Below, piece after piece: positions 1 to 23,317 of a DNA stretch of 27,003 nt. Both the position numbers and the translations under genes were made by a program. Source of the stretch: a virus; the IMG/VR virus record IMGVR_UViG_3300042475_000520, positions 1 through 27,003 of that record. One strand, written 5' to 3'. The first letter of the stretch is position 1, and every line of letters begins with the position of its first letter. The notes under the pieces are model-generated. The model saw nothing but the letters and a program-made list of their open reading frames with translations, made no database searches and had not been told where the DNA came from.

Positions 1-96
1 CAGCTCTACGCCGCCGCTAAGGTCGGTGAGCAGAAGATCATTGAAATCAACGCACGCAGCTTCATGCTGGTTAACATTAAAGGAGTCAAGAAATGA
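1..96 (+). CDS. C-terminal end of an upstream phage gene (partial)
   Basis: An open frame runs from the window edge to a TGA at 94-96 and gives the last 31 residues of a protein that begins outside the window. The visible part has a helical, charged stretch and ends in a Lys-Lys tail. The stop overlaps the start codon of the next gene in an ATGA arrangement, which is the same coupling used along this whole operon, so I take the frame as real. Nothing in 31 residues identifies a family. Confidence 0.6.
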   Translation, partial: QLYAAAKVGEQKIIEINARSFMLVNIKGVKK

Positions 97-317
97 ACGA
101 GAACGCGCCTGTATTGGCGGATGTCAAGTGGTTCACCACTGGCAAAGGTATCGTGGGCATCGCGGCTGTGAGGACTGAGACAGGTGACCTCACGTTCCGC
201 ATTTGCCCAGTTGATGGTTTTAACGCGGTGATTGACGCTAACTTGGTCATGTCACACGGAGCGGTTTTCCCTGAGGACGCCGGTTATGCAGTATTCGCAC
301 GGGAGGATTCAGAATGA
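93..317 (+). CDS. Hypothetical 74-aa protein leading the modification cluster
   Basis: This small acidic protein is not one I recognise. It has no membrane segment, no Cys/His metal motif and no P-loop. It looks like a compact alpha/beta domain. The start is well supported: AAAGGAG lies about 7 bases before the ATG, and the ATG overlaps the upstream stop. Its own stop overlaps the next start (ATGA at 314-317), so it is translationally coupled to the PLP-enzyme gene. That position allows a role in the modification pathway, but nothing in the residues shows it. Confidence 0.7.
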   Translation: MNENAPVLADVKWFTTGKGIVGIAAVRTETGDLTFRICPVDGFNAVIDANLVMSHGAVFPEDAGYAVFAREDSE

Positions 318-1270
318 ACACAGTATTTCCTGAGTTAGCTATTGACCGTAACTTGGTCAAGTGGGAGCAACACCTCGGCACTCAGACGCCATGGGAGAAC
401 CGCAAAGGTATGTGGTTCAAACGTGATGACTACTTTGCCCCGCTCGGCTACAGTGGTCCGAACGGCTCAAAGATGCGCCAGCTCATCTGGTACGTCAACA
501 AGTTTCGTCAGGGTAAGACCCACATTGTCACTGGCGCTAGCATTCAGTCCCCTCAGCTGAGCATGAGCGCTATTGTCGGTGCACATTACGGGTTGCGTGC
601 TCGGCAGATCGTCTATAGCAAGCCTGAGACGGTGTTGCGTCATGAGAACCCTCGCATTGCCTACGGCTTTGATGCTGAGTTTGAGTTCGCTTCTGGTCCG
701 TACAACCCTATCCTGCAACGTAAAGTTGTTGACCTGACGCAGCCGACGTCGCTCGTAGTTGAGTACGGTATTACTGTGCCGCATGACCGCTACCCTGAGG
801 ATGATGTGCGTAAGTTTCACGAGGTCGGCGCTCATCAGACGACCAACATACCGCCTGAAGTCAAGCGGCTCATCGCCCCTGCTGGGTCTTGTAACTCGCT
901 GACGAGCATCATGCTCGGCTTGAGCCGCGACTCGCACAACATTGAGGAACTGTTCACCATAGGTATTGGTCCTGACAAACGCGGTTGGATGCGTCAGCGC
1001 CTCGCCTACATCGGCGTGGACGTTGATAAGCTGCCGTTCAAGTGGAAGCACTATAGCCTACACGATAGCGGCTACAGCAAGTACAGTGACCACTTTACCG
1101 GTGAGAATTTTGACGGCATCAAGTTTCACCCGACCTACGAGGCTAAGATGTGGCGCTGGTTGACACACCATGGCCAATTAGATTATGATGACCAGACCGC
1201 CTTTTGGATCGTGGGCAGCGCCCCTGACACGAAAGTTGTTGAACCCTTTTACACTAGGAAAACATCATGA
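314..1270 (+). CDS. PLP-dependent enzyme, fold type II (ACC deaminase / D-cysteine desulfhydrase-like), probable DNA-base modification enzyme
   Basis: The 318-aa protein resembles fold-type II PLP enzymes. The stretch at residues 34-57 (WFKRDDY...NGSKMRQL) matches the family block whose Lys holds PLP, here Lys53. Residues 73-94 (TGASIQSPQLS...GAHYGL) match the block with the catalytic Ser in QSN, here QSP. PAGSCNS at 189-195 fits the phosphate-binding loop. Seen alone it could be a free amino-acid lyase. It is coupled by ATGA overlaps to genes for base hypermodification, and PLP enzymes are known partners in such phage pathways, where they process the amino acid attached to thymidine. I therefore infer that it acts on the modified base in DNA. 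Family fold is fairly sure; substrate and reaction (decarboxylation, elimination or deamination) are open. Confidence 0.78.
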   Translation: MNTVFPELAIDRNLVKWEQHLGTQTPWENRKGMWFKRDDYFAPLGYSGPNGSKMRQLIWYVNKFRQGKTHIVTGASIQSPQLSMSAIVGAHYGLRARQIVYSKPETVLRHENPRIAYGFDAEFEFASGPYNPILQRKVVDLTQPTSLVVEYGITVPHDRYPEDDVRKFHEVGAHQTTNIPPEVKRLIAPAGSCNSLTSIMLGLSRDSHNIEELFTIGIGPDKRGWMRQRLAYIGVDVDKLPFKWKHYSLHDSGYSKYSDHFTGENFDGIKFHPTYEAKMWRWLTHHGQLDYDDQTAFWIVGSAPDTKVVEPFYTRKTS

Positions 1271-2265
1271 CAGATTATCGTCTGCCGAAAAACCGCGCAG
1301 AGTATTTCACCGCGCTCTACAAGATGAATCTTGAGCACGGGGTTATGCCAGGACTCGTCTACTTGTACATGCCTGAACTCGCTCGCCGCCATAATTGGAA
1401 CGCTGAGCAGAAGCTCTGGTTCGCATTCTTGAACGGCTTGACGCAGAACCCAATCACCTCGCTGCGCATATTTGATCAGCTGCCGATGGTTCCTCCTGCG
1501 GGCGCGGCGCTGACTAAGTTTGAGGAATGGTTCAATGCTGAGTGGGATACGCTACAGTTTGACACTGACCGCCGGTATCAAAAGAAAGACACAGTGCCCG
1601 CGATCAAGACTTACGCCCAGCTCGTTGAAGTTAGCGGCTCGCAGCAAGCTATGCTCACTGGCGCATACTCAGAGTTGTGGAGCCACGTGCGTGACTCGTA
1701 CTTTTCGTTCGGTCGCCTGTCATCGTTCAGCTACCTAGAGTATGTTCACCTGAACGGGTTCGGCGCTGACTGTGATGACCTGTTGTTCAGCGACAAGTCA
1801 GGTAGCAAGTCACACCGCAATGGAATGCTGTTCTTGATAGGCAAAGATGAGCTGGTCTGGGACAAGCGCCTACCTAACGGGCAGGAGGGTAACTACCCTA
1901 AATTTAATTTGATGTGCGGCTTCCTCGCTGCGGAGGCTGATAAGTTTGTTGATAACTTTAAAGCCGCTCACCCTGACGTACCTAATGCTGGTCGCTTCAC
2001 TATGGAGTCAAACCTCTGCACATTCAAGAATCATTTCTTCGGTCGTCGGTACCCAGGAGTTTACGCCGACATGGCGCAGGAGCGCATTGAGTGGGCTGAC
2101 TTGCGCGGTCAAAACGCTTACACCGATGTGTTCAAAGACATGCGGTCTCAACTGCTGCCGGAATGGTTGCGTGTTGAATGTGAGAGTTCACCTATGACCG
2201 TGAAAGAGAAAGCCGCCGTGTTTCCTGAGACCGGTTCACCCTTTAGAGCGGAGTATTTCCTATGA
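1267..2265 (+). CDS. Alpha-glutamyl/putrescinyl thymine pyrophosphorylase-like protein (amino acid:DNA transferase group)
   Basis: The 332-aa protein has the conserved blocks I associate with aGPT-Pplase proteins, a DNA-glycosylase-related helical family. The blocks are FSFGRLSSFSYLEYV at 147-160, GSKSHRNG at 179-186, and a C-terminal block at 247-274 with ESNLC, RRYPGVY and ADMAQERI. Family members displace the pyrophosphate from phosphorylated hmdU in DNA with an amino acid or amine, forming the hypermodified thymidine. It sits between the PLP enzyme and the kinase, with 4-bp overlaps on both sides, which fits that order of reactions. The acceptor amine (Gly, Ser, Glu, putrescine or other) cannot be read from sequence. 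Family recognition is from memory of the motifs rather than from a search. Confidence 0.8.
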   Translation: MTDYRLPKNRAEYFTALYKMNLEHGVMPGLVYLYMPELARRHNWNAEQKLWFAFLNGLTQNPITSLRIFDQLPMVPPAGAALTKFEEWFNAEWDTLQFDTDRRYQKKDTVPAIKTYAQLVEVSGSQQAMLTGAYSELWSHVRDSYFSFGRLSSFSYLEYVHLNGFGADCDDLLFSDKSGSKSHRNGMLFLIGKDELVWDKRLPNGQEGNYPKFNLMCGFLAAEADKFVDNFKAAHPDVPNAGRFTMESNLCTFKNHFFGRRYPGVYADMAQERIEWADLRGQNAYTDVFKDMRSQLLPEWLRVECESSPMTVKEKAAVFPETGSPFRAEYFL

Positions 2266-2843
2266 GCCAGATTGTCAATATTCGCGGCTGCAATGGTTCT
2301 GGCAAGACCACAATCGTGCGGCGCTTCCTCACTAAACTGCCGACTCAGGCGCTGGGTGGTAAACCTGACCGCCCGTTGGGTTACAAAGTAGATGCCTCTG
2401 TTTGGGGTATTATGACCCCTGTGTTTGTAGTAGGTAGCTACGAGAACACATGCGGCGGCGCAGACGGAATCAAAACACAAGAGGAGATCGCTGATCGCGT
2501 GGTCAAGGCGCATGGCCACGGTCATGTGCTCGTTGAAGGGTTGCTGATGAGCAAGTCAAGCAGCGGCGGGCATGTAGCTCCGATACTGAAAGACCACGGC
2601 GCGATATTCTCGTTCTTGAACACCCCTTGGGAGATCTGCTTAGAGCGGGTTTTGCAGCGTCGCGCGGCGGCGGGTAATGAGAAAGTATTTGATCCCGAGA
2701 AGACCATGCGCACGGCGTATGAGCAATGTCATAGGAGCGCAGAAATACTAACTGAAGCGGGCGGTTATGACGTTCGTTTCCTAGATTGGCAAGACCCCGT
2801 CTCTGGTGTTGTAGCGTATTTGAAGGAGAATGAAAATGCGTGA
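2262..2843 (+). CDS. 5-hydroxymethyl-dU DNA kinase-like P-loop kinase
   Basis: The 193-aa protein starts with a beta strand and a perfect Walker A loop, GCNGSGKTT at residues 9-17. A block at 58-70 (GSYENTCGGADGI) is characteristic of the phage kinases that phosphorylate 5-hydroxymethyl-dU in DNA. VLVEGLLMSK at 89-98 fits the Walker B strand, and RVLQRR at 129-134 can supply the lid arginines. Its role would be to phosphorylate hmdU in DNA and so activate it for displacement by the transferase. It lacks the helical domain that some members carry, and the next gene encodes what looks like that domain as a separate protein. A free-nucleotide kinase is the main alternative, but the GSY...CGG block and the neighbours argue against it. 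Confidence 0.83.
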   Translation: MSQIVNIRGCNGSGKTTIVRRFLTKLPTQALGGKPDRPLGYKVDASVWGIMTPVFVVGSYENTCGGADGIKTQEEIADRVVKAHGHGHVLVEGLLMSKSSSGGHVAPILKDHGAIFSFLNTPWEICLERVLQRRAAAGNEKVFDPEKTMRTAYEQCHRSAEILTEAGGYDVRFLDWQDPVSGVVAYLKENENA

Positions 2844-3759
2844 CAATTGCCCATACCCGATGCCGACACCGGAGACTGTGTGCTCGATGCCAAGTCTGCT
2901 TTATTTCATCTGGGAGCGAGAGGCTATTCGCCTTGCCCGTGAGAACGGTCACAGCGCCCCGTGGACTAAAGACCCCGTGCTTGACAAATACAAGTTTACC
3001 AATATTCACCGCTGTGACGACCGCGTCTCGCAGTGGATCATTGATAAGTTGATAACCCCGCACCTTGAGCGCTCTGACCTCTGGTTCACCCTGCTGATCG
3101 CTCGCCTGATCAACTGGCCACCCACGCTACAAGCGCTCATCAACAAGGGCGTCATTCCCTGCACTCCGCAAGAGTTTGACGCTGACATGTTTGAGCACAC
3201 GCTTGAGCGCATCAAGAACGACGGCAAGAAGGTCTACTCCGGCGCGTACATGCTCTACCCGACTAAGATGGAGCCAGGAGGCAACAAGTCTAAGGCGGTG
3301 GCAAAATACATCATCGGCAGCGCCGTTGAGAACGCTGAGAGCATTGACAACACGCTATGGGAGGCGGGCGAGGCACCGACAATAGAACGCTTTGTGACTG
3401 AGTTAAGCAAGTGCTTCGGCATTAGCACTTTCATAGCCGGTCAAGTGGCTGCTGATTTGACTTATGCTCCTGGTCATCTGGACACGGCTGAGGACTTATA
3501 CAGCTATGCACCGGTGGGTCCAGGGAGTTCACGCGGTCTCAACTACTTGTTAGGCAAGTCGCCTTACGCCACGTGGAAGCAGAAAGAGTTCAATGCCGAG
3601 CTGAGCATCGTCTTTAGCGAGATTGTTGACAAGTTAGAAATCATAGACATGACGCTGCACGATGTGCAGAACTGCATGTGTGAGTTCAGCAAGTACTGCC
3701 GCGCTGTGCTCAGCGAGGGTAAACCTAAAACAAATTATCAACCAGAAACGGAGTTCTAA
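2836..3759 (+). CDS. 5-hmdU DNA kinase helical-domain / DNA base transferase family protein
   Basis: This protein of about 307 aa opens with a family block at roughly residues 24-68 (FIWEREAIRL, PWTKDP, YKFTNIHRCDDRVSQW). I know this block from the helical domain of phage 5-hmdU DNA kinases and related base-modifying proteins. Further blocks are GPGSSRGLNYLLG near 228-240 and HDVQNCMCEFSKYCR near 275-289. It has no P-loop. An ATG at 2830 is only 1 base from the AAGGAG at 2823-2828, whereas the ATG at 2836 is 7 bases away, so I chose 2836. It probably recognises or flips the modified base for the kinase, or is a second transferase. The adjacent separate kinase suggests a two-subunit version of a usually fused enzyme. 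Confidence 0.72.
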   Translation: MRDNCPYPMPTPETVCSMPSLLYFIWEREAIRLARENGHSAPWTKDPVLDKYKFTNIHRCDDRVSQWIIDKLITPHLERSDLWFTLLIARLINWPPTLQALINKGVIPCTPQEFDADMFEHTLERIKNDGKKVYSGAYMLYPTKMEPGGNKSKAVAKYIIGSAVENAESIDNTLWEAGEAPTIERFVTELSKCFGISTFIAGQVAADLTYAPGHLDTAEDLYSYAPVGPGSSRGLNYLLGKSPYATWKQKEFNAELSIVFSEIVDKLEIIDMTLHDVQNCMCEFSKYCRAVLSEGKPKTNYQPETEF

Positions 3760-4797
3760 ATGGAGTTAGTCGTACGCAACGTCAATCAGGCTTTCAGTGA
3801 GATATTCTGGAAGCTCAAAGTGCTCAACCTACAACCTGAGCAGACCCGCAATGGTCCCGCAATCGTGTACCCAGAGATGGTGACCACGGTCTATAAGTGT
3901 CCGTCTGAGCGGGTGCTGTTTCACAGGGGTCGTGACGCGAACCCTATCTTCCACTTGATGGAGTCAATCTGGATGCTCGCTGGGCGTAACGATGTTGCGT
4001 TCTTACAGCAGTTCAATAAGCGTATGGTCGAGTTCAGCGACGACGGCAAGACATTTAACGCTGCCTACGGTCACCGCTGGCGTAAACACTTCGGTCATGA
4101 CCAGCTTGACGATGTCATCAAGATGCTACGCCGCGACCCTAACAGTCGTCAAGCCGTTATTCAAATGTGGGACGATGCTGACTTGAGTAAGAAGACCAAG
4201 GACAAGGCATGTAACATGCAGGTCATCTTTGATACACGCGGCGGTCGCCTCAACATGACGGTGATCAACCGGTCTAACGATATCTGGTGGGGTGCTTACG
4301 GCGCTAACGCTGTGCACTTTAGTTTCCTGCAAGAGTTCATTGCCGCCGCCATAGCGCACAGAATCGGCGTGTACCGTCAAGTGAGTAATAATTTTCACTT
4401 GTACACAGAACTTTATAACGCGAAGCCTTACTTGGTGTCCCCGCCGGACTCACATGACTATGACCATTACTCTAACGGCTCGGTGCGTCCGCTGCCGATC
4501 ATGCTGAATGGCGAGTACAAGTTATTCCTGACGGAGTGTGAGATGTTCTGCCATGACCCGTTCAATGAGCGTATACATTATGCTAACCCGTTCTTTGAGC
4601 ACATCGCCCGCCCTATGGCTATGATCAGTCGTGTGCGTAAGATTCACGCCGGTGACGGTCGCAGCTATGCCGCTAAGATCCGCGCTGAAGACTGGCGTCG
4701 CGCCGCTTTTGATTGGATTGACCGCCGCGACCACGCTCGCAAGATCAAAGAGGAAGATGACGAGATAAATGAGATGCGGGAGACGCTGAAAAAATAA
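3760..4797 (+). CDS. Thymidylate synthase family protein, probable dUMP hydroxymethylase
   Basis: The 345-aa protein has the thymidylate synthase core. YGHRWR at 103-108 matches the family block, the nucleophile Cys151 lies in KACNMQ, and RSND at 171-174 matches the phosphate-binding RSxD. GANAVHF at 181-187 carries Asn183 where uracil-specific members have Asn and dCMP hydroxymethylases have Asp, and FHLY is at 212-215. It therefore should act on dUMP. Sequence alone does not separate methylation from hydroxymethylation. Lying directly after the hmdU-kinase and transferase genes, it is best read as the enzyme making 5-hydroxymethyl-dUMP. About 50 residues after the core are charged and helical. 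It begins right after the upstream TAA, with GGAG 8 bases before the ATG. Confidence 0.85.
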   Translation: MELVVRNVNQAFSEIFWKLKVLNLQPEQTRNGPAIVYPEMVTTVYKCPSERVLFHRGRDANPIFHLMESIWMLAGRNDVAFLQQFNKRMVEFSDDGKTFNAAYGHRWRKHFGHDQLDDVIKMLRRDPNSRQAVIQMWDDADLSKKTKDKACNMQVIFDTRGGRLNMTVINRSNDIWWGAYGANAVHFSFLQEFIAAAIAHRIGVYRQVSNNFHLYTELYNAKPYLVSPPDSHDYDHYSNGSVRPLPIMLNGEYKLFLTECEMFCHDPFNERIHYANPFFEHIARPMAMISRVRKIHAGDGRSYAAKIRAEDWRRAAFDWIDRRDHARKIKEEDDEINEMRETLKK

Positions 4798-4861: not shown

Positions 4862-5350
4862 GTGAAACATACTCTCGATTTTATTCTGGCTGGAAGCGAA
4901 GTGAAGCGGTATCATACCGTCACCACTCTCGTGTCTGAAACAGTCGGTCATCACTCTCACGGCGTAGCTATGCTGTGTTTGTTGTTTGATCCGATGGCGA
5001 GTCGTCAAATGCTGATGGCTGCGTTGTTTCACGACCTCGCTGAACATCAGACCGGTGACATCCCCTCCCCCGCTAAGCGTGAGTTCGGCATCGGCGGTAA
5101 GGTAGACGAATTAGAGCTGCGACTTATGACCGCTGCCGGAATCGTCATGCCTCACCTCTCGCCTGAAGACAAGCGCACTCTCAAACTCGCTGACGTAGCT
5201 CAGGGTGCGTTGTTTTGCGCTCGGGAAATTTCATTGGGTAACAAACGCATGCGCCGCGTATTTGACCGCTACATCAGCTATGCGGAAGAGTTGATTCTGG
5301 TCGGTCGCGAGCGCGAAATCTTCAACATGATTAAGGAATACGCAGCATGA
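4862..5350 (+). CDS. HD-domain phosphohydrolase (YfbR/DatZ-like nucleotidase or dNTPase)
   Basis: This 162-aa HD-domain protein has VKRYH at 14-18, His33, the HD pair His57-Asp58 followed by DLAEHQTGDIPSPAK to residue 72, and a distal Asp111 in LADVAQG. This layout fits YfbR-type 5'-deoxynucleotidases and the small phage dATP hydrolase DatZ. It starts with GTG; TGGAG lies 9 bases upstream. It has its own promoter and operator-like site. The substrate cannot be read. Near a predicted dUMP hydroxymethylase it may remove dTMP or dTTP, or another nucleotide that competes with the modified one, much as hmdU phages such as SPO1 suppress thymine nucleotides. Its stop overlaps the next start (ATGA). 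HD nuclease function seems unlikely at this size. Confidence 0.8.
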   Translation: MKHTLDFILAGSEVKRYHTVTTLVSETVGHHSHGVAMLCLLFDPMASRQMLMAALFHDLAEHQTGDIPSPAKREFGIGGKVDELELRLMTAAGIVMPHLSPEDKRTLKLADVAQGALFCAREISLGNKRMRRVFDRYISYAEELILVGREREIFNMIKEYAA

Positions 5351-5619
5351 GCGCGGCTAATCAAAAACAAATAGGCGGTAATCACTACAAGCACGGCGGC
5401 GAGGAGCACTGGGACCGTGTGAATCGTTTGAACCTGAATTACTTTCAGGCGGCTACTACTAAGTACGTTGAGCGGTGCTACCTCAAAGGTAACCCGATTC
5501 AAGACTTACAGAAAGCCGTTCATTTCCTTGAGAAGCTGATTGAGATCGAGCAGCGTAAAGCTGATGCGGCTTGCAGTGACGGTGCTGAGCCGACTCGTGG
5601 CTATGTTAACCAAGACTGA
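5347..5619 (+). CDS. DUF3310 family protein
   Basis: The 90-aa protein matches the DUF3310 pattern. KQIGGNHYK is near the N-terminus, followed by EHWD, LNYFQAATTKYVERCYLKG in the middle, and DLQKAVHFLEKLIE near the C-terminus. This small helical family is widespread in phages and often lies among nucleotide-metabolism and replication genes. It is sometimes named a nucleotide kinase, but the protein has no P-loop and I would not give it that role. It is coupled to the HD gene by an ATGA overlap and runs into the polymerase gene. Confidence 0.82.
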   Translation: MSAANQKQIGGNHYKHGGEEHWDRVNRLNLNYFQAATTKYVERCYLKGNPIQDLQKAVHFLEKLIEIEQRKADAACSDGAEPTRGYVNQD

Positions 5620-7462
5620 AATGGGCACTTGGGTGTTTGATACTGAAACTCTACCTAACCGCACTTTGTTCTGCGCAAAGAACATTGAGACGGGCGAGTG
5701 GTTTGACCTGTGGCGTCATGATGACGACGCACCGGCTCGCCTTACGCGGTTCGTGCAGCAGTCAGACAGTACATTTATTGGCTTCAACAGCAAGTCATTT
5801 GACAACGCGGTTGTGGCGGCGTTCTGCCTCGGCAGGACTGAGATTGAGATCAAGCGCATTGCTGATGACATCATCACGAACCGCCTAGCGCCGTGGAATG
5901 CGATGCGTAAGCATAATTTACGTAGCGTTATTCTTGATGACATTGACTTGATTGAGGTCGCCCCGTCATTCGTAGGTTTGAAAGCCTATGGTGCTCGCAT
6001 GCACATGCCTAAGTTGCAGGATATGCCGATCGCTCACGACGACATGATCACCCCTGATCAAGAGCCGATGCTACTTGAGTATTGCCACAACGACGTTGAC
6101 ACAACGGCTGAGCTGTTGAATCAACTCGAGGGTGAGCTTATGCTGCGCGTTGAGATGAGCCGCCGTTACGGAGCCGACATGCGTAGCAAGTCTGACTCGC
6201 AAATGGCTGAACAGGCTTACATCACCAGCATGGGTCTCAAACGTCAGGATAATGACATCCCTAAGACGGTCAGATATACGCCTCCGGCGTTCCTGAAGTT
6301 TATGGATGCCGAGCTACAGGGGCTGCTTGATCGCGTCTCTGAGCACGTGTTCAACATGAACCCCGTCACTGGGCACGTCAGGCTTCCAGATTTTCTCGGG
6401 CTAAAGACGATTAAATTCGGCAGCGGCGAGTACCAGCTCGGCGTGGGCGGTATTCACAGCGTACATGATAGGCAGGTGTGTCACATCGCTGGTGATGATC
6501 ACATGTGCGACATTGACGCGGCTTCGTTCTACCCGAGTATCATTCTTGAGTGCGGGTTCATACCGGTCGCGTTAGGTAAGCGCTTCGTAGAAGAGTACCG
6601 CAAGATCTATGAGCGCCGCCTAGAAGCAAAGCGTAACGGCGACAAAATCACCGACGCGACCCTGAAGATTTCATTGAATGGTACGTTTGGCAAACTCGCT
6701 AGCCGCTTCTCGGTGTTGTACTCGCCGGACTTGATGTTGGCGGTCACGCTGACTGGGCAGTTCACCCTGCTCATGTTGATTGAGTGGCTTGAGCGAGCAG
6801 GGGCTTTGACTTTGTCAGCTAATACTGACGGTATTGCAATTCGTTACACTAAGGAGCAGAAAGAGCTGGTTGAGAAGGTTGTCAACAAATTCAGCGAGGT
6901 GTCTGGTTTCTCATTTGAGTACACGCCGTATCGCGCCTTAGCTGTCAAAGATGTCAATAATTACATTGCGGTCAAACCTGATCGCAAATTAAAAGTGAAA
7001 GGAATCTATGCGCCGTTATCTCTCAAGAAAAACCCAACGGCTCAGGTATCGTCAGATGCTGTGGGAGCATGGCTGGCAGAGGGTACTCCGTTTGAAGACA
7101 CGATTAGGTCTGCTCCGTTCACGGACTTTATCAGTGCCCGAAATGTTACCGGCGGCGGTCAGCAGAACGGCGTTTATCTTGGCAAAGTCGTACGGTGGTA
7201 TCAATCAACGGATGCTAGCAATGAGCCTATCAAGTACGCTACGAATGGCAACAAGGTTCCGAAAACCGAAGGCGCTAAGGCATGCATGACCCTGCTTGAC
7301 AAGGTCACACACCCAGCTGATTTAGACTATGACTGGTACAACAAAGAGGCGATAAAAATCGCCATAGCGGTCGGCTGCTCTGAGTATCTCACTCCTGAGC
7401 AGATCGCTTTAGTGGCACCACCACCTAAGAAAACTAGGAAAGTTAAAAATGGAACACGGTAA
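5603..7462 (+). CDS. Family B DNA polymerase with 3'-5' exonuclease
   Basis: Numbered from the ATG at 5603 this is a 619-aa polymerase. The proofreading domain has FDTE at 12-15 (Exo I), FNSKSFD at 61-67 (Exo II) and YCHND in the Exo III position. The polymerase domain has motif A DAASFYPS with Asp305, motif B KISLNGTFG starting at Lys355, and motif C NTDG with Asp409. Motif C lacks the first Asp of DTDS but keeps the catalytic second one. At this length it is a compact replicase; I cannot tell whether it is protein-primed. An in-frame ATG at 5540 lies deep in the DUF3310 gene. The ATGs at 5603 and 5621 are both possible and neither has a strong ribosome site. Confidence 0.93.
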   Translation: MLTKTEMGTWVFDTETLPNRTLFCAKNIETGEWFDLWRHDDDAPARLTRFVQQSDSTFIGFNSKSFDNAVVAAFCLGRTEIEIKRIADDIITNRLAPWNAMRKHNLRSVILDDIDLIEVAPSFVGLKAYGARMHMPKLQDMPIAHDDMITPDQEPMLLEYCHNDVDTTAELLNQLEGELMLRVEMSRRYGADMRSKSDSQMAEQAYITSMGLKRQDNDIPKTVRYTPPAFLKFMDAELQGLLDRVSEHVFNMNPVTGHVRLPDFLGLKTIKFGSGEYQLGVGGIHSVHDRQVCHIAGDDHMCDIDAASFYPSIILECGFIPVALGKRFVEEYRKIYERRLEAKRNGDKITDATLKISLNGTFGKLASRFSVLYSPDLMLAVTLTGQFTLLMLIEWLERAGALTLSANTDGIAIRYTKEQKELVEKVVNKFSEVSGFSFEYTPYRALAVKDVNNYIAVKPDRKLKVKGIYAPLSLKKNPTAQVSSDAVGAWLAEGTPFEDTIRSAPFTDFISARNVTGGGQQNGVYLGKVVRWYQSTDASNEPIKYATNGNKVPKTEGAKACMTLLDKVTHPADLDYDWYNKEAIKIAIAVGCSEYLTPEQIALVAPPPKKTRKVKNGTR

Positions 7463-11469: not shown

Positions 11470-13509
11470 TTACTTCATTTTCTTCAAGTCAGCTTCGATG
11501 TCCGCATCAATGTCCGGACCGATCAAGCGGCTGCCAGGAATGTTAGGGATATCCGACGCTTCAATATTCTCTGGCGTGGCGTTAGGATCAATCGGTGAAG
11601 GCGGGAATGCTGTCACAGTACCCATGATCGCACCCGTCTCGCCTTTACCGAGCTTAGCCGCCCCTGCGGTAGCCTTAACATTGTACTGCTCAATCAATTT
11701 AACAGCCGCCGCAACTTCATGCGGGTCACTTGACATGAGCAATTTGCTGACTTTCTCAGCAACTTCATCAGTCATCGTAGCGCTGCGTGCTACACGTGCT
11801 GCCATGTTTGTGAAAGAATTCCAGAACGTCCCCGTCACGGCATCCGCAACTGCTGCCCCTACCCCTGAGTCCTCCTCAAAGCGTTCACGCGCCTGAGTGC
11901 GTCTTCCGGTAGCCGCGCCACCAAGGATGCGGTTGGATTGTTGGAACAACTGAGCCTCACGCTCAAGAGCCGACTTGAACATCTCAAACTTAGCAGGGCT
12001 GTCAAACAACGGCTGCAACTTAGCTTGCATCTCAGGCGAGCCGATGATACGCTGTGCGGCGTTCAAATTAGCAGCAGTCGGATCCATTATTTTGCTGTAG
12101 ATGTCACGAACAACACCTGTGCGGAACGCGTCTTTTTCAGCGTTACCCATTTTGCTGATCATGTCAATCACTTGCTCATGGTCTAGCTTGTTGAAGTCCT
12201 TCATACCTGCGCGCATCGCCTCAAGCACTTCCATGTCACCGGAGTAGGCTTGACGAGCTTTGAGATAAGGTGAGTTCACGCCGCCTGTAGCCTCGTCAAT
12301 CGCGTTTACGTAGACATTACGGAGCTGCTTGAGAGCGTTAGCTTCAGCGCTGCTCATACCTTTAGCACTTGTGTAACCAGCTTCAATCGTTGCGTCGATA
12401 CCGCGCTTGACGTAATCAAGTGTGCGGACGTCAGGCAATTTTGCCAACTCTAAAATCTCATTACCGTTGGCGTCAAATTTACCAGTGGGTTTGTAGATTT
12501 CGGGCAGGGCAAACTTGCTGGGGTCTTCACCGCGCAACTTAGCCGCTTGAGCTTCCGTGTCAGCAATGCTACGCGCTTTGCTCCAGAACTCTTGAAAACG
12601 AGGGTTCTTCAAAGCATCAATGATGCGGGGGTCATCTACGTCACCAAAAGCGTACGCGTCGTCATAAAGCGTATCAGCTTGCTTACGCAACTCTTTCATC
12701 ATCTTCTGCTCATCAGCGTAGAAGTTACCAGACTTGATCCCTTTACGGGTTTGTGCGTAAGTGCGCTCACGAGCACCGGCGGTTTGCTCGCCGAGTTTCT
12801 TCTCAACTAAACGACCGCTGGGACCGCTACGCTGGGCAACGGTCTCGGCGAGGTCAACTAGGGCGGGGTCAGCGTTAGCTATGGTTGACGGAATATTACG
12901 AGCACGGTCTTGAACGACCTTCTGCTCAATCTGCTGAGGAGTCATACCTGACTCGTTCATAGCACGGGAAACTTTACCTAGAGCTGTTTTAGTCACGCTA
13001 GCCTCGCTAGGGGCGAGCCGGTCACGTAACCACTTAGCAGCCGCACCGCTACCGCGAATGACTGCCGGAGCAGCTGTGCCGAGTGTTGTTCCGACCACTG
13101 TTCCGGTAGTTGCCCCCGCGCCTCGTTCTCCTGGCTGGGCAGAACCCGCGCCAGAGACAGCACCGGTCACACCGCCGGTCACCGCGCCGCGCACGTAAGG
13201 GTTTGCTGCTAAGCGAGCTAAAGCGCTAGCGGCGACCGGAGCAGTAGCGCCTCCAGTAGCGGGAGCGGTCAGCATCGCAGCTAAAGCAGGAGCAGCCCCG
13301 CCGCCGAACTCAAGAGCCGGAGCCACAAACGGGTTCTCTTTAGAATACTGCGCATATTCTTGATTGATTCTAGCGAGTTCAGTCTCGTAACCCTTGCTAC
13401 CGGCGAGCTTTGAGCGGAGCCATGCTTCGGCTTCATCACCCCAGCCCATACCGAGACCTTGACCGAGGACGGCACGAGCACCGCCCAAGTACGGATTAGC
13501 TGTAGCCAT
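11470..13509 (-). CDS. Large internal virion / DNA ejection protein
   Basis: The 679-aa protein starts with GARAVLGQGLGMGWGDEAEAWLRS near residues 10-32, a block seen at the start of phage internal virion proteins, then ELARINQEYAQYSKENP. Residues 68-150 are Ala/Gly-rich and hydrophobic, as in membrane-active ejection proteins. The rest is long, charged and helical. It would be packed in the virion and ejected with the DNA. It is the last gene of the structural operon and starts one base inside the upstream stop (TAATG). No lysozyme or polymerase motif is visible. Family assignment rests on composition, the N-terminal block and position. Confidence 0.68.
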   Translation of the reverse strand: MATANPYLGGARAVLGQGLGMGWGDEAEAWLRSKLAGSKGYETELARINQEYAQYSKENPFVAPALEFGGGAAPALAAMLTAPATGGATAPVAASALARLAANPYVRGAVTGGVTGAVSGAGSAQPGERGAGATTGTVVGTTLGTAAPAVIRGSGAAAKWLRDRLAPSEASVTKTALGKVSRAMNESGMTPQQIEQKVVQDRARNIPSTIANADPALVDLAETVAQRSGPSGRLVEKKLGEQTAGARERTYAQTRKGIKSGNFYADEQKMMKELRKQADTLYDDAYAFGDVDDPRIIDALKNPRFQEFWSKARSIADTEAQAAKLRGEDPSKFALPEIYKPTGKFDANGNEILELAKLPDVRTLDYVKRGIDATIEAGYTSAKGMSSAEANALKQLRNVYVNAIDEATGGVNSPYLKARQAYSGDMEVLEAMRAGMKDFNKLDHEQVIDMISKMGNAEKDAFRTGVVRDIYSKIMDPTAANLNAAQRIIGSPEMQAKLQPLFDSPAKFEMFKSALEREAQLFQQSNRILGGAATGRRTQARERFEEDSGVGAAVADAVTGTFWNSFTNMAARVARSATMTDEVAEKVSKLLMSSDPHEVAAAVKLIEQYNVKATAGAAKLGKGETGAIMGTVTAFPPSPIDPNATPENIEASDIPNIPGSRLIGPDIDADIEADLKKMK

Positions 13510-16061
13510 TATTCAGTTCCTTCCTCAAGCGGGGCAGTCATACGGTAAGCGCCCGAAGTGATTTGATCAAGACGTGATTGTTCACGAGCGACGCGGTCCT
13601 GAAGCACTCTGTAAGCGCGTTTGATGATTGCGCCGCGTTCTTCTTTAGTTTTAGCGCCGATACCTTCAAGCTCCATCAAGATTGCGCGTTCGCCTTCAGT
13701 CGGTGCGCCACCGAAGGTTGCTTTCAACTTAGCCAGACCCTGAGAACCGAGCAGGTTGTTAAGGATACGTGTGTTGACAATCGTAGGATCTTTAGAACCC
13801 GCCGCTTCACCCAAGAACTGCTGCCCTTTCTCCAACCAGCCCCCCGCTAATGTGTTCGGGTTCAGCGCGTACGCCTGTTTCAAATCAAGCAGAGATTGCT
13901 TGCTAGAGGCGATAAGGTCTTCAGCTTCGCTCTTCATTTTGATTTCAGGTCCGCTCAGCTTAGCTTGCTGTTGTTTCTGGTTTTGGAATTTTTCCTGAGC
14001 CAGAGCCAAATTAGCAGCCGTTGTGCTTACACCCGCTAACGAGGCCGTAATCTGCGCCAGTTTACCTTCAATATTCATATTGCCGATAACTTCTACGCGC
14101 TTCTGGTACTCAGGAGTTCCTGGTGTCAACCCCTCATCCTTCGCTTGCTTACCTGCGGAAGACTGCGGCTCACCAGACTTGATATAATCCTTGATGAGTT
14201 CTGTAGCGATCGCTCGCTTGTCTTTCATCTCTTCGCCAGCTAGCGAACGCAAGGTGTTCAAGTCTTCTTTTGCTGCGGTCATCTTCATCTTCTGACCTTC
14301 AAGAGCCAGAGCGAGTTTCTGTTGAGCAGAAGCGCGTTTGTTTTTAGAGTATTCACCCAGCTCTTTACCGACCATACTGAGGTTCTCAGCAAAGTGGCCG
14401 GTTTTAGTGGGAGCGCCGAACGCAGACGCCAATCTGAAATACATCTCAGCCTTAGAAGATTTCTCATCTTCGGGGGACTTCATAGCGCTGCTGAGCATCT
14501 TAGCGAATGCGTCGCTCTCAGCCTTAGCGCTAGCGCGGGCGGCTTTCAAATCTTCTCCGTAAGCACCGTCTTTTGGACCGTACGCAGCGAGCAAGGCTTG
14601 AATGTTACCCATACGCTCAGAGCCGAACGCTGGCGGTGCTACGGGTGGGGGCTTAGGCGCGGCTACAACAGCTGGAGCCACGGGAGCCTCGTTCATAGCA
14701 ATAGTAGCCAGAGGCGCGTTGACTGGCTCGGCTTCTGCCCGCGTTGAAATCATAGGCGGCGGGGGGCTGCTCATGTCGACAGGGCTAATCTCAACCGGTG
14801 CGCGGTCACGCTCTTGACGAGCGAGAAAGTCTGCTTCTTCCTCAGCGCTTCCGTAGCCGCTAGGTAAACTCACGCTACCGGCGGTTTGATAATGAGTTTT
14901 CACTTGACCGCCCTCAGCAAAAGCCATCGTAGCCATATTTTGATCGTCAAAGTATTTACCGCCGCCTCCGGAGCCGCCAAAATTGTAGTCGCTTCCGCGG
15001 AAATCGTAACTTCCGTCAAGGTTAAATGAGTTGTCAACTAAGTATTTATCAAACTCTTCTGGTAGGTCTTCTGGGTTTTTCATTAAACCCCTTGAAGGTC
15101 CGTATTCAACAAGGTCTGGGTCATCAAAAAACGACTTGTCTTCTTTTGGTTTTTCAACTGTAAAATCTGGCAACTCAAGAGGAGTTTCAGGAATGATTAA
15201 CGGGATATTGGTGTCAACAGTGTCAGGAATATCATTGATGATTGGCTTTGTGTAAATTGACGGTATTTCAACCACGGGATCAACCACCGGATCAACCACC
15301 GGATCTACTACAGGGTCAGTGATTACGGGGTCTACCACTGGATCTACCACGGGATCAACTACAGGATCTACCACGGGATCAACTACAGTAGGTGTGGTTA
15401 CGATAGGGGTAGTAACAATAGGGGTTGTAACTGTTGGGGTGGTGACAGTTGGAGTGGTGACCGTTGGAGTGGTGACCGTTGGTGCTGTTACGGTGGCTGT
15501 CGGAGTAAAAGTTGGTCCGTACTTAGGCGCTTGCAGCACGTTTCCCCAACGATTCTGAGTAGCGTTATAAATGTCTTGACCGCTAATGCCATACAAATCT
15601 GCATACGCATTAATAGCGCTTGAATAAGCGTTCGGGTTTTTAGCGGCGTAATCTTGAATGTTTTGGTTGTACTGCTTGATACCAATATTTCGACCAGTGA
15701 TTGGGTCCGGCGAAGGGTCTTTGTCACTCTTAGTTGCCCATTGCAATCCAGCAGACTTAGGTTCATAACCGGTTTGAAACTGAGATTGCATGTACATCGG
15801 AGTATTCATCAAACGGGTTTGATACTCTTTCTTGTACGCGTCATACGCAGCCGTGTCAGCGGGAGCGTTAGCTTTGTCAATGTTGTATTTAGCTAAGAGC
15901 GAATCATAGTTAGTTTGCGCGGCGGTCAGCTTGTCACCTGTCAGTGTGTCCGTAGCGACTGGGCGTGTGCCAGGATCAACCGGAGTTGCACCTGAATAGT
16001 TAACCCTGCCAGGAGTACCTACCCCGTATTGCTGCATTATGCGGTTGAGTTCAAATCCCAT
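13509..16061 (-). CDS. Internal virion protein with low-complexity Thr-Val-Pro / Val-Asp-Pro spacer
   Basis: The 850-aa protein has a helical N-terminal domain (1-185), then seven five-residue units of the TVTTP type (190-224) and about nine units of the VVDP type (226-262). A Gly/Asp-rich segment follows (350-370), then FAEGGQV at 381-387, an Ala/Pro linker (about 440-480) and a long charged helical C-terminal half. The repeats should form an extended stalk joining two folded parts. Position between two other large internal proteins suggests an ejection or internal core protein. A tail-fibre role is less likely but possible. AAGGAGCAGGT lies just before the ATG. Confidence 0.62.
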   Translation of the reverse strand: MGFELNRIMQQYGVGTPGRVNYSGATPVDPGTRPVATDTLTGDKLTAAQTNYDSLLAKYNIDKANAPADTAAYDAYKKEYQTRLMNTPMYMQSQFQTGYEPKSAGLQWATKSDKDPSPDPITGRNIGIKQYNQNIQDYAAKNPNAYSSAINAYADLYGISGQDIYNATQNRWGNVLQAPKYGPTFTPTATVTAPTVTTPTVTTPTVTTPTVTTPIVTTPIVTTPTVVDPVVDPVVDPVVDPVVDPVITDPVVDPVVDPVVDPVVEIPSIYTKPIINDIPDTVDTNIPLIIPETPLELPDFTVEKPKEDKSFFDDPDLVEYGPSRGLMKNPEDLPEEFDKYLVDNSFNLDGSYDFRGSDYNFGGSGGGGKYFDDQNMATMAFAEGGQVKTHYQTAGSVSLPSGYGSAEEEADFLARQERDRAPVEISPVDMSSPPPPMISTRAEAEPVNAPLATIAMNEAPVAPAVVAAPKPPPVAPPAFGSERMGNIQALLAAYGPKDGAYGEDLKAARASAKAESDAFAKMLSSAMKSPEDEKSSKAEMYFRLASAFGAPTKTGHFAENLSMVGKELGEYSKNKRASAQQKLALALEGQKMKMTAAKEDLNTLRSLAGEEMKDKRAIATELIKDYIKSGEPQSSAGKQAKDEGLTPGTPEYQKRVEVIGNMNIEGKLAQITASLAGVSTTAANLALAQEKFQNQKQQQAKLSGPEIKMKSEAEDLIASSKQSLLDLKQAYALNPNTLAGGWLEKGQQFLGEAAGSKDPTIVNTRILNNLLGSQGLAKLKATFGGAPTEGERAILMELEGIGAKTKEERGAIIKRAYRVLQDRVAREQSRLDQITSGAYRMTAPLEEGTE
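15270..15494. repeat. Tandem 15-bp and 12-bp coding repeats
   Basis: On the minus strand, bases 15494-15387 carry seven imperfect 15-bp units and bases 15386-15270 carry imperfect 12-bp units. They encode the TVTTP and VVDP runs of the 850-aa structural protein. Unit lengths are multiples of three, so gain or loss of units keeps the frame. There are no unique spacers, so it is not a CRISPR array. Confidence 0.85.
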
Positions 16062-16070
16062 ACCTGCTCC

Positions 16071-17510
16071 TTAAATATTGCTCAAACCTTTGTACGTATA
16101 GAGACCGGTCGCCAGCTGAGACAGCGGTGAAGGTGAATACGTAGCGCCGACGGACGTGCCCGTGTTAGTTGTGGTTTGCGGTGTGATTGGAGCCATGCCG
16201 CGAATCTGCGTGCTGAGCCAATCCATTTGCTGTTTGGGATAGTTCTGCTCGTTGATGTACTGCTGTTGAGCAGCGTTAAGTTGCTGCTGCATTTGACCCT
16301 GCTGAGCCGCGCCCGCGCCTTCAAGTGACGCTACGTCAGCTGAGCGCATAGCTTGCTCCTGCTGTTGCATGTTGGCAAAATTCTGCAAAGCAGACATTTG
16401 TCGCGCGTAATCTTGAGCCTGAGCTGCTTGTGTAGCTTGAGCAGCGGTAAGACCGAACTGCTGTTGAGCCTGACCCGCGCTAGTCTGCATTTGGCCAAGG
16501 TTACCCAGCTGAGACATCTGTTGAGCTGTCATTTGACCGGCGGTTTGACCTAGGTTAGTCAAGTTTTGTTGCTGTTGACCGGTCAACGAACCTGCGGTCT
16601 GTGCGAGGTTCTGGTATTGACCAGCGCCTTGCAGAACACGAGACAAATCCGCACCCGAGATACTACCCACAGTGCCAGCCAATTGAGCTTGACGAGCGAG
16701 GTCTGCTTGAGAAGCGCCGAGCGCCTGACCGTAACCCTGTTGAGCAGCTTGAGCTTGCTGATTAAGAATAGCCTCTTGTGTATCACGCAGCGCACGTGAG
16801 CCGAACTCACCCATACGTGTGCCGCCAAACTGACCCGCCTTGATGAACTGGTCAGACACGGCAGGTAACAGGTTTTCGCTCAAATTACGAGCACCCTGCT
16901 TGGCGATGACGTCCATGACGCCTTGTTGGTACGGGCTGTCGTACTGACTGATACCTGATGCGGCACTTTTAGCGGCGGCTTGCAAGTAAGGGTTAGCGGC
17001 GGTTAAAGCCTTGTCAGACAGGGCTTCAGCGGTCGTCTGACCTGACTGCTGTAGGTAGGGATTAGCCGCACCCATGATGTTTTGCTGACCCGCTTGTGAC
17101 AAGTACGGCTGAGCCGCGCCCACGATGTCCATCTGACCGGCTCTATTGAAATATCCTTGACCCGCGTCTAGGTTTTTACCGACCAAATCTTGACGCAAAT
17201 ACTGACTTTGCGCCTGTTTTAACGCGTCAGCTGTACCTTTGCTGCCGAACTCGTACATGCCCGACTGAGCTTTGTCTAAGTCGCCTTGATAGAAACCTTG
17301 ATTAGCCTGAACCTGCTTGTATGCTTGCTGTTGTAGCGGTGACAATTCAGCCACAGTAGGCATGTCGTACGGCTGGTAAGGCGTATTGGCAATGTTCTGA
17401 GCGACTTGAATTTGGTTATAAATCGCATCCTGCATCCACTTCGGGGTCTCGGTGGATGACGTGGTGTAAGACGTAGCGGTCTGAGGCGACCCTTGGAATA
17501 AGCTGCCCAT
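16071..17510 (-). CDS. Gln/Ala-rich internal virion / ejection protein
   Basis: The 479-aa protein begins with a block (STETPKWMQDAIYNQIQVAQ, then TPYQPYD, then SPLQQQAY) common to ejection-type proteins of podovirus-like phages. Residues 80-180 repeat a Gly-Gln-Asn-Pro-Tyr-Leu theme (QPYLSQAGQ, NPYLQQSGQ, NPYLQAAA). Residues 250-430 are very rich in Gln and Ala and should form long helices or coiled coils. It lies between two other large internal proteins and is coupled to the previous gene by a TAATG overlap. Function is inferred from composition and position. Confidence 0.66.
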   Translation of the reverse strand: MGSLFQGSPQTATSYTTSSTETPKWMQDAIYNQIQVAQNIANTPYQPYDMPTVAELSPLQQQAYKQVQANQGFYQGDLDKAQSGMYEFGSKGTADALKQAQSQYLRQDLVGKNLDAGQGYFNRAGQMDIVGAAQPYLSQAGQQNIMGAANPYLQQSGQTTAEALSDKALTAANPYLQAAAKSAASGISQYDSPYQQGVMDVIAKQGARNLSENLLPAVSDQFIKAGQFGGTRMGEFGSRALRDTQEAILNQQAQAAQQGYGQALGASQADLARQAQLAGTVGSISGADLSRVLQGAGQYQNLAQTAGSLTGQQQQNLTNLGQTAGQMTAQQMSQLGNLGQMQTSAGQAQQQFGLTAAQATQAAQAQDYARQMSALQNFANMQQQEQAMRSADVASLEGAGAAQQGQMQQQLNAAQQQYINEQNYPKQQMDWLSTQIRGMAPITPQTTTNTGTSVGATYSPSPLSQLATGLYTYKGLSNI

Positions 17511-19318: not shown

Positions 19319-19330
19319 TTGTCACTCCAA

Positions 19331-19558
19331 TTAAGACAGCGATTGAGCAAACCGCTCAGCCCAGTCACGCCAATCATCAAAGTCGTAAGGTAGAGGGAAG
19401 TTTCTACCTAGCGAAGTATTGTTCAAAAACTGCATAGCCCAATTCTGCCAGTCGTCACCGTCAAGACGACTAAGCGCCCCGTAACTGTCCAGATCGAGCG
19501 CAATCTGATCAGCCCAGTCATGTAGCGACATGTAAGAGGGGCGAGTAATCGTGGTCAT
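19331..19558 (-). CDS. Small tryptophan-repeat protein of the structural operon
   Basis: This 75-aa acidic protein contains three copies of a short unit: SLHDWADQIALDL at 11-23, DDWQNWAMQFLNN at 35-47 and DDWRDWAERFAQS at 61-73. Each has the pattern [W/L]xxWAxx[I/F] and would form a short amphipathic helix, so the protein is probably a three-helix repeat. It overlaps the stabilization-protein stop by 4 bases (ATGA). The position suggests a small virion or chaperone-like protein working with the tail or ejection proteins. I do not know a named family for it. Confidence 0.72.
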   Translation of the reverse strand: MTTITRPSYMSLHDWADQIALDLDSYGALSRLDGDDWQNWAMQFLNNTSLGRNFPLPYDFDDWRDWAERFAQSLS

Positions 19559-22595: not shown

Positions 22596-23227
22596 TACGC
22601 TTCACTCCTGTTTGCTGAGCGATCCATGATACGTTTCAGGTCTTCTCCGTTGAGAGCCTGAGCAGCACGGTCGTACATGGCTTGCCAAGTCTGAATACGC
22701 TCGTCTTTTTTAAGGAACGGGGTGGCTTCTAGCAGCGTTGCGTAAAGCAGCACATCAGGTGCGTATTCAGTAAGCCAGTTGGTTTGTAAATCATCACCCA
22801 GAAGGGCAGGTTGTTCATAGTACAGAATCTCAAGAGTCTGCACTGCAGAAGGCGACGGGGTTATCAACCAATGTTGGTAATCATAGTCAGCGTAAAACTG
22901 CGGAGCAGCGGTCTGAGCCTCGTTAGGCCAATAACTGCGGCAGTACTCGTATGAACGAGCGAAAATAGGTGACCCGTTGACCGTCATGCTGATTGTGTCG
23001 CGCCACCGGTCAGGCTTGAGGTAGACAGCTACGCCGACAGACAAAGGAGTTGACACTGCGCGGATAAACCCCTGAATTTTAAGTTCGCGGGCGATACGGC
23101 GCTCACCTAATGTGATTAGGCGAGGTAGCTGGTCGTAAACGATCTGGTCGCTCTCTTGCGTGAAACCACGTTCAAGGTAGCGGCGCACGTCCACCAGCAG
23201 ACTGTCGTACGTCATGCTATAGCTCAT
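22595..23227 (-). CDS. Phage adaptor / head-to-tail connector protein
   Basis: The 210-aa protein resembles the adaptor proteins that sit under the portal ring. It has a helical N-terminus with VYDQLPRLITLGERRIARELK at 30-50, then YLKPDRWRDTISM at 69-81, and a C-terminal helical part with WLTEYAPDVLLYATLLEATPFL. It is followed by the tail proteins, as expected. It has its own promoter-like site and GGAG 6 bases before the ATG. Family recognition is from motif memory. Confidence 0.75.
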   Translation of the reverse strand: MSYSMTYDSLLVDVRRYLERGFTQESDQIVYDQLPRLITLGERRIARELKIQGFIRAVSTPLSVGVAVYLKPDRWRDTISMTVNGSPIFARSYEYCRSYWPNEAQTAAPQFYADYDYQHWLITPSPSAVQTLEILYYEQPALLGDDLQTNWLTEYAPDVLLYATLLEATPFLKKDERIQTWQAMYDRAAQALNGEDLKRIMDRSANRSEA

Positions 23228-23277
23228 AAATACTCCATGGGTATTAGCCGCTGATTCAGCATGCGCCGTTTTGATGA

Positions 23278-23307: not shown

Positions 23308-23317
23308 ATTGAAAGTG

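Follow-up and report, generated by a model that had tools for sequence, protein, structure and literature searches.

The closest described counterparts of the locus studied here are the thymidine hypermodification pathways of two phages, Salmonella phage ViI (Vi01) and Pseudomonas phage M6 (M6/YuA). The ViI base is reportedly derived from serine and decarboxylated by a pyridoxal phosphate (PLP) enzyme, and M6 is said to use glycine, followed by radical SAM isomerization and decarboxylation. The ViI product, 5-(2-aminoethoxy)methyl-deoxyuridine (5-NeOmdU), accounts for ∼43% of the T-derived bases in ViI DNA, and M6 DNA contains 5-NedU (reported in sections of PMC6449724 and also of PMC11721090). 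The genes of the 5-NeOmdU pathway are reported as a conserved feature of Ackermannviridae (a passage of PMC11721090). For a ViI relative, Dickeya phage PP35, the part of the genome description dealing with modification lists a dUMP hydroxymethyltransferase, two kinases, a PLP enzyme, and two “aGPT-PPlases,” with the open reading frames (ORFs) dispersed over the genome (PMC6336734). Here, we describe a compact five-gene operon at positions 314 to 4797 of a 27,003-base viral sequence, IMG/VR record IMGVR_UViG_3300042475_000520, which we analyzed in its entirety and refer to as the window.

From gene content, homology, conserved positions of catalytic residues, purifying selection, and recurrence across contigs, all of which we observed directly, we judge that the operon probably encodes a ViI-type pathway of post-replicative thymidine hypermodification, with 5-NeOmdU or a close analog as its product. 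We put the probability of this reading at about 0.65. The five genes, with their family matches and E values, are as follows.

314 to 1270, plus strand: fold-type II PLP enzyme, ViI subfamily (phrog_3650, 1.5e-73)
1267 to 2265, plus strand: ADDT, putative amino acid:DNA transferase (PF18724, 2.7e-17; phrog_3271, 5.9e-62)
2262 to 2843, plus strand: putative P-loop 5-hydroxymethyl-deoxyuridine (5-hmdU) DNA kinase, class A of two (phrog_800, 7.4e-17)
2830 to 3759, plus strand: HMUDK_hel, 5-hmdU DNA kinase helical-domain protein, a separate gene (PF18723, 2.5e-45; phrog_2396)
3760 to 4797, plus strand: predicted dUMP hydroxymethylase of the thymidylate synthase (TS) family (Thymidylat_synt, 6.6e-22; phrog_5131)

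Assignment of the five genes

An earlier, sequence-only reading of the window had described five consecutive genes joined by 4- to 14-bp overlaps or direct abutment. The ORF coordinates confirm this layout, with all genes on the plus strand, the first four overlapping in turn by 4, 4, and 14 bp, and HMUDK_hel directly abutting the TS-like gene. The same reading had recognized a known set of families that builds hypermodified thymidines on 5-hmdU, and the combined assignments support it. Its individual family guesses held for ADDT and HMUDK_hel, which exceeded their Pfam cut-offs, for the TS-like protein, which matched its family, and for the PLP protein, which was placed through PHROGs and named relatives and had no relevant Pfam match; the kinase could be placed only through homologs, its Pfam score falling below the cut-off. 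What had been called an “aGPT-Pplase-like transferase” was right in substance, the protein belonging to Pfam ADDT, amino acid:DNA transferase; some phage records name ADDT “aGPT-PPlase clade 2” and HMUDK_hel “clade 1.”

The first gene, judged from its structural model, encodes a fold-type II PLP enzyme of the D-cysteine desulfhydrase/1-aminocyclopropane-1-carboxylate (ACC) deaminase branch. Against Pfam it produced a single irrelevant match below the cut-off, but phrog_3650 also contains Vi01_182 and gene 41 of Glutamicibacter phage Montesquieu, and the protein aligned with Vi01_182 at 31% identity (blastp, 2e-57). Its similarity to the XcbE, D-cysteine desulfhydrase, and ACC deaminase models was weak and far below curated cut-offs, and a sequence search gave an E value of 0.0099 with a solved D-cysteine desulfhydrase. 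The best PDB matches found by Foldseek for its AlphaFold (AF2) model (pLDDT 79, pTM 0.78) were D-cysteine desulfhydrase 4d92 (E 1.4e-10, TM 0.62, 16% identity) and an ACC deaminase homolog. Residue K53 is aligned with the GGNK-motif lysine of Escherichia coli DcyD, which we take to be the PLP-binding (Schiff base) lysine, and it is invariant in 25 aligned sequences (the window and 24 relatives). By analogy, we propose that this enzyme decarboxylates a DNA-linked amino acid.

The ADDT protein scored 63.7 bits against PF18724 (curated cut-off, 26.2). Its group, phrog_3271, is that of Vi01_199, and M6 gp51 sits in phrog_6364. Identity to the Vi01 protein was 26%, and the closest named relatives were mycobacteriophage proteins of the Lolalove group (36% identity). 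The solved chains closely related to M6 gp51 carry the names amino acid:DNA transferase and glycinyltransferase; the window protein had no sequence relative in the PDB at an E value of 1. We propose, again by analogy, that ADDT transfers serine to pyrophosphorylated 5-hmdU in DNA, and the amino acid transferred is the least certain step of the prediction.

We call the third gene 5-hmdU-kinase-like because of its homologs and its PHROG, the Pfam score being sub-cut-off. It shares phrog_800 with M6 gp54 and Vi01_061c, matched Pam3_49 (1.6e-17) and M6 gp54 (6e-13) by blastp, and adjoins HMUDK_hel, as in M6. M6 gp54 itself scores 65.1 bits with PF18748 (HMUDK_HMUD1). The PHROG label of this protein, “terminase small subunit,” was rejected, since phrog_800 includes M6 gp54, a PF18748 protein; the label, which is also used in phage records, seems to have been given to 5-hmdU DNA kinases in error.

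HMUDK_hel scored 155.4 bits against PF18723 (cut-off, 25) and aligned with M6 gp55 at 31% identity (blastp, 4e-42). The TS-like protein, which matched at a single site in every one of the 12 long relatives selected, aligned with M6 gp58 at 45% identity (blastp, 2e-95). Its best solved relatives were CMP 5-hydroxymethylase chains (9.3e-23 and 1e-22), compared to 1.2e-11 for the best TS chain. In alignment with E. coli ThyA, C146, R166, N177, H207, and Y209 are kept, W83 is replaced by F and H147 by N, and W80 falls in a gap; equivalents of these last three are also absent from Vi01 (F and N) and M6 (Y and N). Going by the residue roles of TS, retention of N177 fits a uracil substrate. We predict from its sequence that this enzyme, which resembles hydroxymethylases more closely than TS, is a dUMP hydroxymethylase.

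TS, P-loop kinase, and PLP folds are all common in metabolism, and an HD nucleotidase-like gene comes next, as might be expected if the operon served nucleotide-pool or amino acid metabolism and resembled a modification cluster by chance. We regard this as extremely unlikely, however, as ADDT and HMUDK_hel exceed the cut-offs of Pfam families named for DNA modification and two phages with modified DNA of analyzed composition carry homologs of the set (sections of PMC6449724).

Comparison with ViI, M6, and other phages

We compared the window with Vi01 and with the M6 stretch 36000-59446, both from phages with analyzed DNA, at an E limit of 1. Vi01 has homologs of all five proteins (PLP, Vi01_182, 2.3e-56; ADDT, Vi01_199, 1.2e-25; TS, Vi01_060c, 1.4e-39; HMUDK_hel, Vi01_130c, 4.5e-11; kinase, Vi01_061c, 3.9e-5), the PLP and ADDT proteins falling in the same PHROG subfamilies. 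Its genes, however, are scattered over a 157-kb genome in which only TS (37163-38203) and the kinase (38203-38865) are neighbors; HMUDK_hel lies at 87432-88655, PLP at 140538-141812, and ADDT at 151076-152311. The window group, with long records of 53 to 59 kb, carries the set as one 4.5-kb operon, and its kinase, HMUDK_hel, and TS-like proteins are M6-like, matching M6 better than Vi01 (gp54, 1e-13; gp55, 3.1e-35; gp58, 1.2e-87). No protein of the M6 stretch matched the window PLP or ADDT at this limit.

The gene order in M6 is ADDT gp51, PLP gp52, radical SAM gp53, kinase gp54, HMUDK_hel gp55, Nmad5 gp56, TS gp58, and HD gp59. M6 and the window share homologous kinase, HMUDK_hel, TS, HD, and DUF3310 genes in the same order, whereas M6 differs in its ADDT and PLP subfamilies and in having the radical SAM and Nmad5 genes. 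PHROG membership divides the tailoring proteins into phrog_3650 (PLP) and phrog_3271 (ADDT), found in the window, Vi01, and Montesquieu, and phrog_7093 (PLP) and phrog_6364 (ADDT), found in M6 and Pam3 beside a radical SAM gene. Single-protein trees show the same split, with long branches to the reference phages, and the PLP subfamilies are remotely related to each other (window to phrog_7093, 1e-4; M6 gp52 to phrog_3650, 2.7e-4). On these comparisons, the locus reads as a compact chimera in which an M6-type core, predicted to carry out steps 1 and 2 of the pathway set out below, is joined to ViI-type tailoring genes for steps 3 and 4. PLP and ADDT should be the genes that decide the product. 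The locus points to a swapping of tailoring genes onto a shared hmdU core.

Searching IMG/VR with the PLP and ADDT proteins yielded 76 loci, of which 67 remained once nine duplicates of a contig were dropped; the contigs include some near copies, and many incomplete loci are cut by contig ends. None of the 76 matched M6 gp49, gp51 (ADDT), gp52 (PLP), gp53 (radical SAM), or gp56 (Nmad5) (phmmer, E 1e-3). A radical SAM search with Pfam found no match in the window record or in any of 12 chosen long relatives (53 to 59 kb), the model being a weak one that gives the M6 protein an E value of 1.8e-4, below its cut-off. Acetyltransf_1 had no match in the same 12 relatives and was not searched over the whole window. 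A product of the M6 type, 5-NedU made from glycine, would suit the M6-like sequence and order of the kinase, HMUDK_hel, TS, HD, and DUF3310 genes, and a later locus (L114) has a weak M6-type ADDT match besides a ViI-type pair. M6-type ADDT, PLP, and radical SAM genes were nevertheless unmatched in 76 of 76 loci, and radical SAM in 12 of 12 long relatives, making this product very improbable; it was rejected on the PLP and ADDT subfamily evidence.

Other phages share parts of the set. Pseudanabaena phage Pam3 has the core order kinase, HMUDK_hel, TS, and 5'-deoxynucleotidase but M6-type PLP and ADDT; it also has genes that carry DNA repair photolyase and Nmad5 annotations. In Montesquieu, ADDT (phrog_3271) adjoins PLP (phrog_3650), as in the window, whereas two PF18751 P-loop genes are present and the TS- and HMUDK_hel-type genes lie 3.5 to 5 kb off. 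HTVC023P-type pelagiphages carry TS and HMUDK_hel-type (aG/PT-PPlase1) pairs near PolA, some with a 5'-deoxynucleotidase, and the passages on these genes name no PLP or ADDT partner (PMC9599517). In place of TS, Lolalove, from the mycobacteriophage group with the closest named ADDT, has a hydroxylase and Rhodococcus phage Tonitrus a TET-like gene, with a ParB-like gene; Tonitrus is described as having a different five-gene set, with no PLP gene named in that part of the account (PMC11955845). In Mycobacterium phage Lolalove (L085, 785-3462), ADDT lies beside the “hydroxylase” and a Ploopntkinase3 kinase, and the annotation of the first 9.7 kb includes neither a PLP nor a TS gene; perhaps hmU is made in the DNA there and an amino acid added afterwards.

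By analogy with relatives, from which all four chemical steps, the serine, and the product are taken, the window pathway would begin with synthesis of 5-hydroxymethyl-dUMP by the TS-family enzyme and its entry into phage DNA in place of some T (step 1). The P-loop kinase and HMUDK_hel would then pyrophosphorylate the 5-hydroxymethyl group at selected DNA sites (step 2), and ADDT would replace the pyrophosphate by an amino acid, most likely serine linked through its side-chain oxygen, leaving the alpha-amine free (step 3). Finally, the fold-type II PLP enzyme would form an aldimine with the alpha-amine and decarboxylate the adduct to 5-NeOmdU or a close analog (step 4). No radical SAM rearrangement would be needed, because the amino acid would be attached by its side chain with the alpha-amine available to the PLP enzyme. 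The modified base would shield phage DNA from host restriction. An activated pyrophosphoryl intermediate is supported by a phiW-14 mutant that is reported to accumulate pyrophosphorylated hydroxymethyluracil in its DNA (a section of PMC5977210). The sequence-only reading had taken the missing radical SAM and acetyltransferase genes as a sign of an undescribed base. This was not supported; such gene content is that of the ViI-type pathway, and because the ViI set explains it, we do not take the absences to indicate a new base.

Several observations weigh against a ViI-type product. The kinase matches PF18748 with an E value of 0.0028 and 17.6 bits, under the cut-off of 27; its relatives in L009 (19.7 bits), L034 (20.6), L014 (25.8), and L011 (26.4) also score below it, and only that of L076 (33.5) scores above. 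Identity to the Vi01 PLP and ADDT proteins is low (31% and 26%), and subfamily alone is no proof of product, the PLP subfamilies being distant kin. The closest named ADDT proteins are from mycobacteriophages, one of which has no PLP gene annotated nearby, and an amino acid other than serine may therefore be used. In some relatives, PLP is absent while the other four genes are kept. For the decarboxylase role of the Vi01 PLP protein, the prediction relies on what Lee et al. 2022 are said to report. Finally, the record may be a fragment, and further tailoring genes may therefore be missing.

Some of these points suit a pathway that is the same as far as pyrophosphoryl-hmdU and then diverges to a new base, either because ADDT adds an amino acid other than serine or because the PLP enzyme performs a racemization or elimination. 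Both tailoring proteins are of low identity to Vi01, the nearest ADDT proteins are those of mycobacteriophages, and the nearest solved PLP folds are D-cysteine desulfhydrase and ACC deaminase, which are not known to be decarboxylases. On the other hand, PLP and ADDT co-occur in Vi01-like phages, Montesquieu, and the window group, and a known pathway with such a gene set exists. A different base is a minority prospect and is not what the evidence predicts. If the product is of the ViI type, the single 4.5-kb operon should hold the complete pathway, which would be easier to reconstitute than genes spread over 157 kb.

Recurrence and variation of the operon

The gene set recurs in many uncultured phages. 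PLP was present in 62 of the 67 related loci, PLP with ADDT in 60, and all five genes in 54, and in 52 of the 54 the genes shared a strand and were ordered as in the window; both loci with PLP but no ADDT stop at the edge of a contig. Recurrence of the set in this order argues that the operon is not a chance arrangement. On the same strand, ADDT and the kinase overlap or abut in 57/63 cases and the kinase and HMUDK_hel in 54/61, and the spacing of HMUDK_hel and TS is -1 to +5 in 58/58, while PLP and ADDT overlap or abut in only 20/58. Three loci (L024, L025, and L097, the last being record G012) have a rearranged cluster, with PLP ∼7 kb off on the strand opposite ADDT, kinase, HMUDK_hel, and TS.

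The operon is under purifying selection. In unsaturated comparisons of the window with eight chosen relatives, the ratio of nonsynonymous to synonymous substitution rates (dN/dS) was 0.028 to 0.166 for PLP, ADDT, HMUDK_hel, and TS, and for same-class kinases (defined below) it was 0.051 to 0.080.

In a phage collection, PLP had 346 records and ADDT 374 (27 of them Mycobacterium), with equal or nearly equal counts in nine other genera listed for both. On the bacterial side, six pattern matches to PLP were found, none of which was confirmed as a homolog, and the ADDT search gave three contigs of metagenome-assembled genomes. On one of these, from an Actinomycetota (L090, RGDC01000007.1), ADDT and PLP are adjacent, and profiles found no kinase, HMUDK_hel, or TS gene in its 20.9 kb.

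Four long relatives with ADDT, kinase, HMUDK_hel, and TS had no PLP match (G001, 54.8 kb; G002, 43.3 kb; G003, 57.5 kb; G004, 60.8 kb). In a fifth, G005 (L076), only residues 292-316 remain (25 residues; L076:8202-8276), and this C-terminal remnant just upstream of ADDT suggests that the gene was lost there. Among 17 records picked partly because PLP was unseen near ADDT, 8 had a substantial PLP match, 1 the remnant, and 8 none. The PLP-less records (43 to 61 kb) and the remnant could mean that the PLP step is dispensable or functionless and that the DNA bears an undecarboxylated amino acid. We find this improbable for the window: in 5 of 6 unsaturated comparisons, none of the other four genes had a dN/dS below that of PLP (0.028 to 0.066), and its lysine is invariant in the aligned sequences.

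A second kind of variation is a 248- to 256-amino-acid protein encoded between PLP and ADDT in 10 of the 67 loci, which we call methyltransferase-like from motifs seen by eye. Neither Pfam nor PHROGs matched the proteins of L042 and L053, and an AlphaFold model (pLDDT 43) was unusable for fold. The PLP-less G001 and G002 and the 11-kb record G006 have homologs close to ADDT, G011 has a weak match, and a distant homolog, Pam3_39, lies near the Pam3 cluster. The genes listed here lie between PLP and ADDT or beside ADDT without PLP.

L042:1670-2416, methyltransferase-like gene
L050:9513-10283, methyltransferase-like gene
L053:7199-7966, methyltransferase-like gene
L126:7178-7915, methyltransferase-like gene
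L150:6046-6783, methyltransferase-like gene

In L114, the weak M6-type ADDT match (55 bits, from 1763 onward) lies upstream of a ViI-type PLP gene, a methyltransferase-like gene, and ADDT, placing two kinds of transferase together.

The kinase varies in another way. Among 55 relatives, its identity to the window protein is either 72 to 100% or 40 to 49%, with none between, and either class can stand beside a PLP protein 94% identical to the window's (kinase identity, 94% in L015 and 48% in L011). The kinase genes of relatives include L011:10560-11123 and L014:11946-12518, as well as that of L015. In three cross-class comparisons, made in 100-base steps, DNA identity was 0.48 to 0.69 over the kinase gene and recovered in the adjoining genes, compared to 0.85 to 0.96 over the kinase gene in a same-class comparison. 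Shorter dips to 0.60-0.68 also occur inside HMUDK_hel and ADDT; low-identity patches among close relatives lie at 1467-1667 in ADDT (0.68-0.90) and 3467-3567 in HMUDK_hel (0.60-0.67), and these are possibly substrate- or DNA-contact loops.

The two classes form one split in the kinase tree (support, 97), bearing in mind that this tree and the one described next were quick ones with long branches, that the same data served to name the classes, and that two class B rows, L081 and L082, seem to branch beside class A. On a tree of ADDT, HMUDK_hel, and TS (56 rows, 49 of them different; 24 class A and 32 class B), the class label needs 9 changes, at least 6 of them forced by well-supported branches, and a topology holding class A together was rejected (approximately unbiased test, p-AU 7.5e-41). 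These sequence relationships indicate that kinases of two diverged classes have repeatedly replaced one another on a conserved backbone.

In M6, ViI, and phiW-14, modification favors TG/TC sites, a preference that the authors ascribe to the kinase (sections of PMC6449724), and kinase exchange may therefore change the sites that are modified. We suggest, tentatively, that the kinase is an exchangeable specificity cassette in a fixed operon, with gene-sized swaps shifting the contexts of modified T, and that PLP loss and the methyltransferase-like gene alter the base. If true, the operon varies both where and what is modified, a parallel to S-subunit exchange in restriction-modification systems. 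The natural variants (two kinase classes, PLP losses, and the methyltransferase-like gene) make kinase sequence specificity and the order of tailoring directly testable.

The gene families and the logic of the pathway are already known, and the abstract of Lee et al. 2022 is said to mention gene permutations in viral metagenomes. Among the open-licence listings and passages covered, which leave out two central papers (Lee 2018, 2022), we met no compact chimera of the M6 and ViI types, no exchange of kinases, and no loss of PLP.

Neighboring genes and the remainder of the window

The operon is flanked by the following genes.

93 to 317, plus strand: small ORF of 74 amino acids, overlapping the start of PLP by 4 bp
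4862 to 5350, plus strand: HD-domain 5'-deoxynucleotidase-like protein (YfbR-like PF12917, 6.8e-10)
5347 to 5619, plus strand: DUF3310-like small protein (phrog_5839, 1.1e-20)
5540 to 7462, downstream of the DUF3310-like gene: DNA polymerase gene (phrog_1252)

The 74-amino-acid ORF had no family match in Pfam, PHROGs, or further profile searches; it was matched in 23 of the 76 loci, repeated contigs included, and is possibly the first gene of the operon. The HD and DUF3310-like genes (4862-5619), both conserved partners of the operon, follow the hydroxymethylase, as in M6, where their homologs are gp59, in the same place, and gp61; the HD gene was found in 59 of the 76 loci, repeats included. 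The HD protein possibly controls the deoxynucleoside monophosphate pool, and the two genes together perhaps serve pool control in favor of hmdUTP. At the position of the phrog_1252 polymerase, M6 has a phrog_17 polymerase, and the two do not match at an E value of 1.

No tRNA was found in the window, and a megablast comparison of its first 25,000 bases with 50,697 phage records gave no match. A virion module at 11470-24878 shows mostly weak matches to tail sheath, tape measure, fiber, virion structural, and endolysin families. Within it, 13512-16061 matches only a tail lysozyme stretch of Pseudanabaena phage Pam5, so the lineage is probably an undescribed one.

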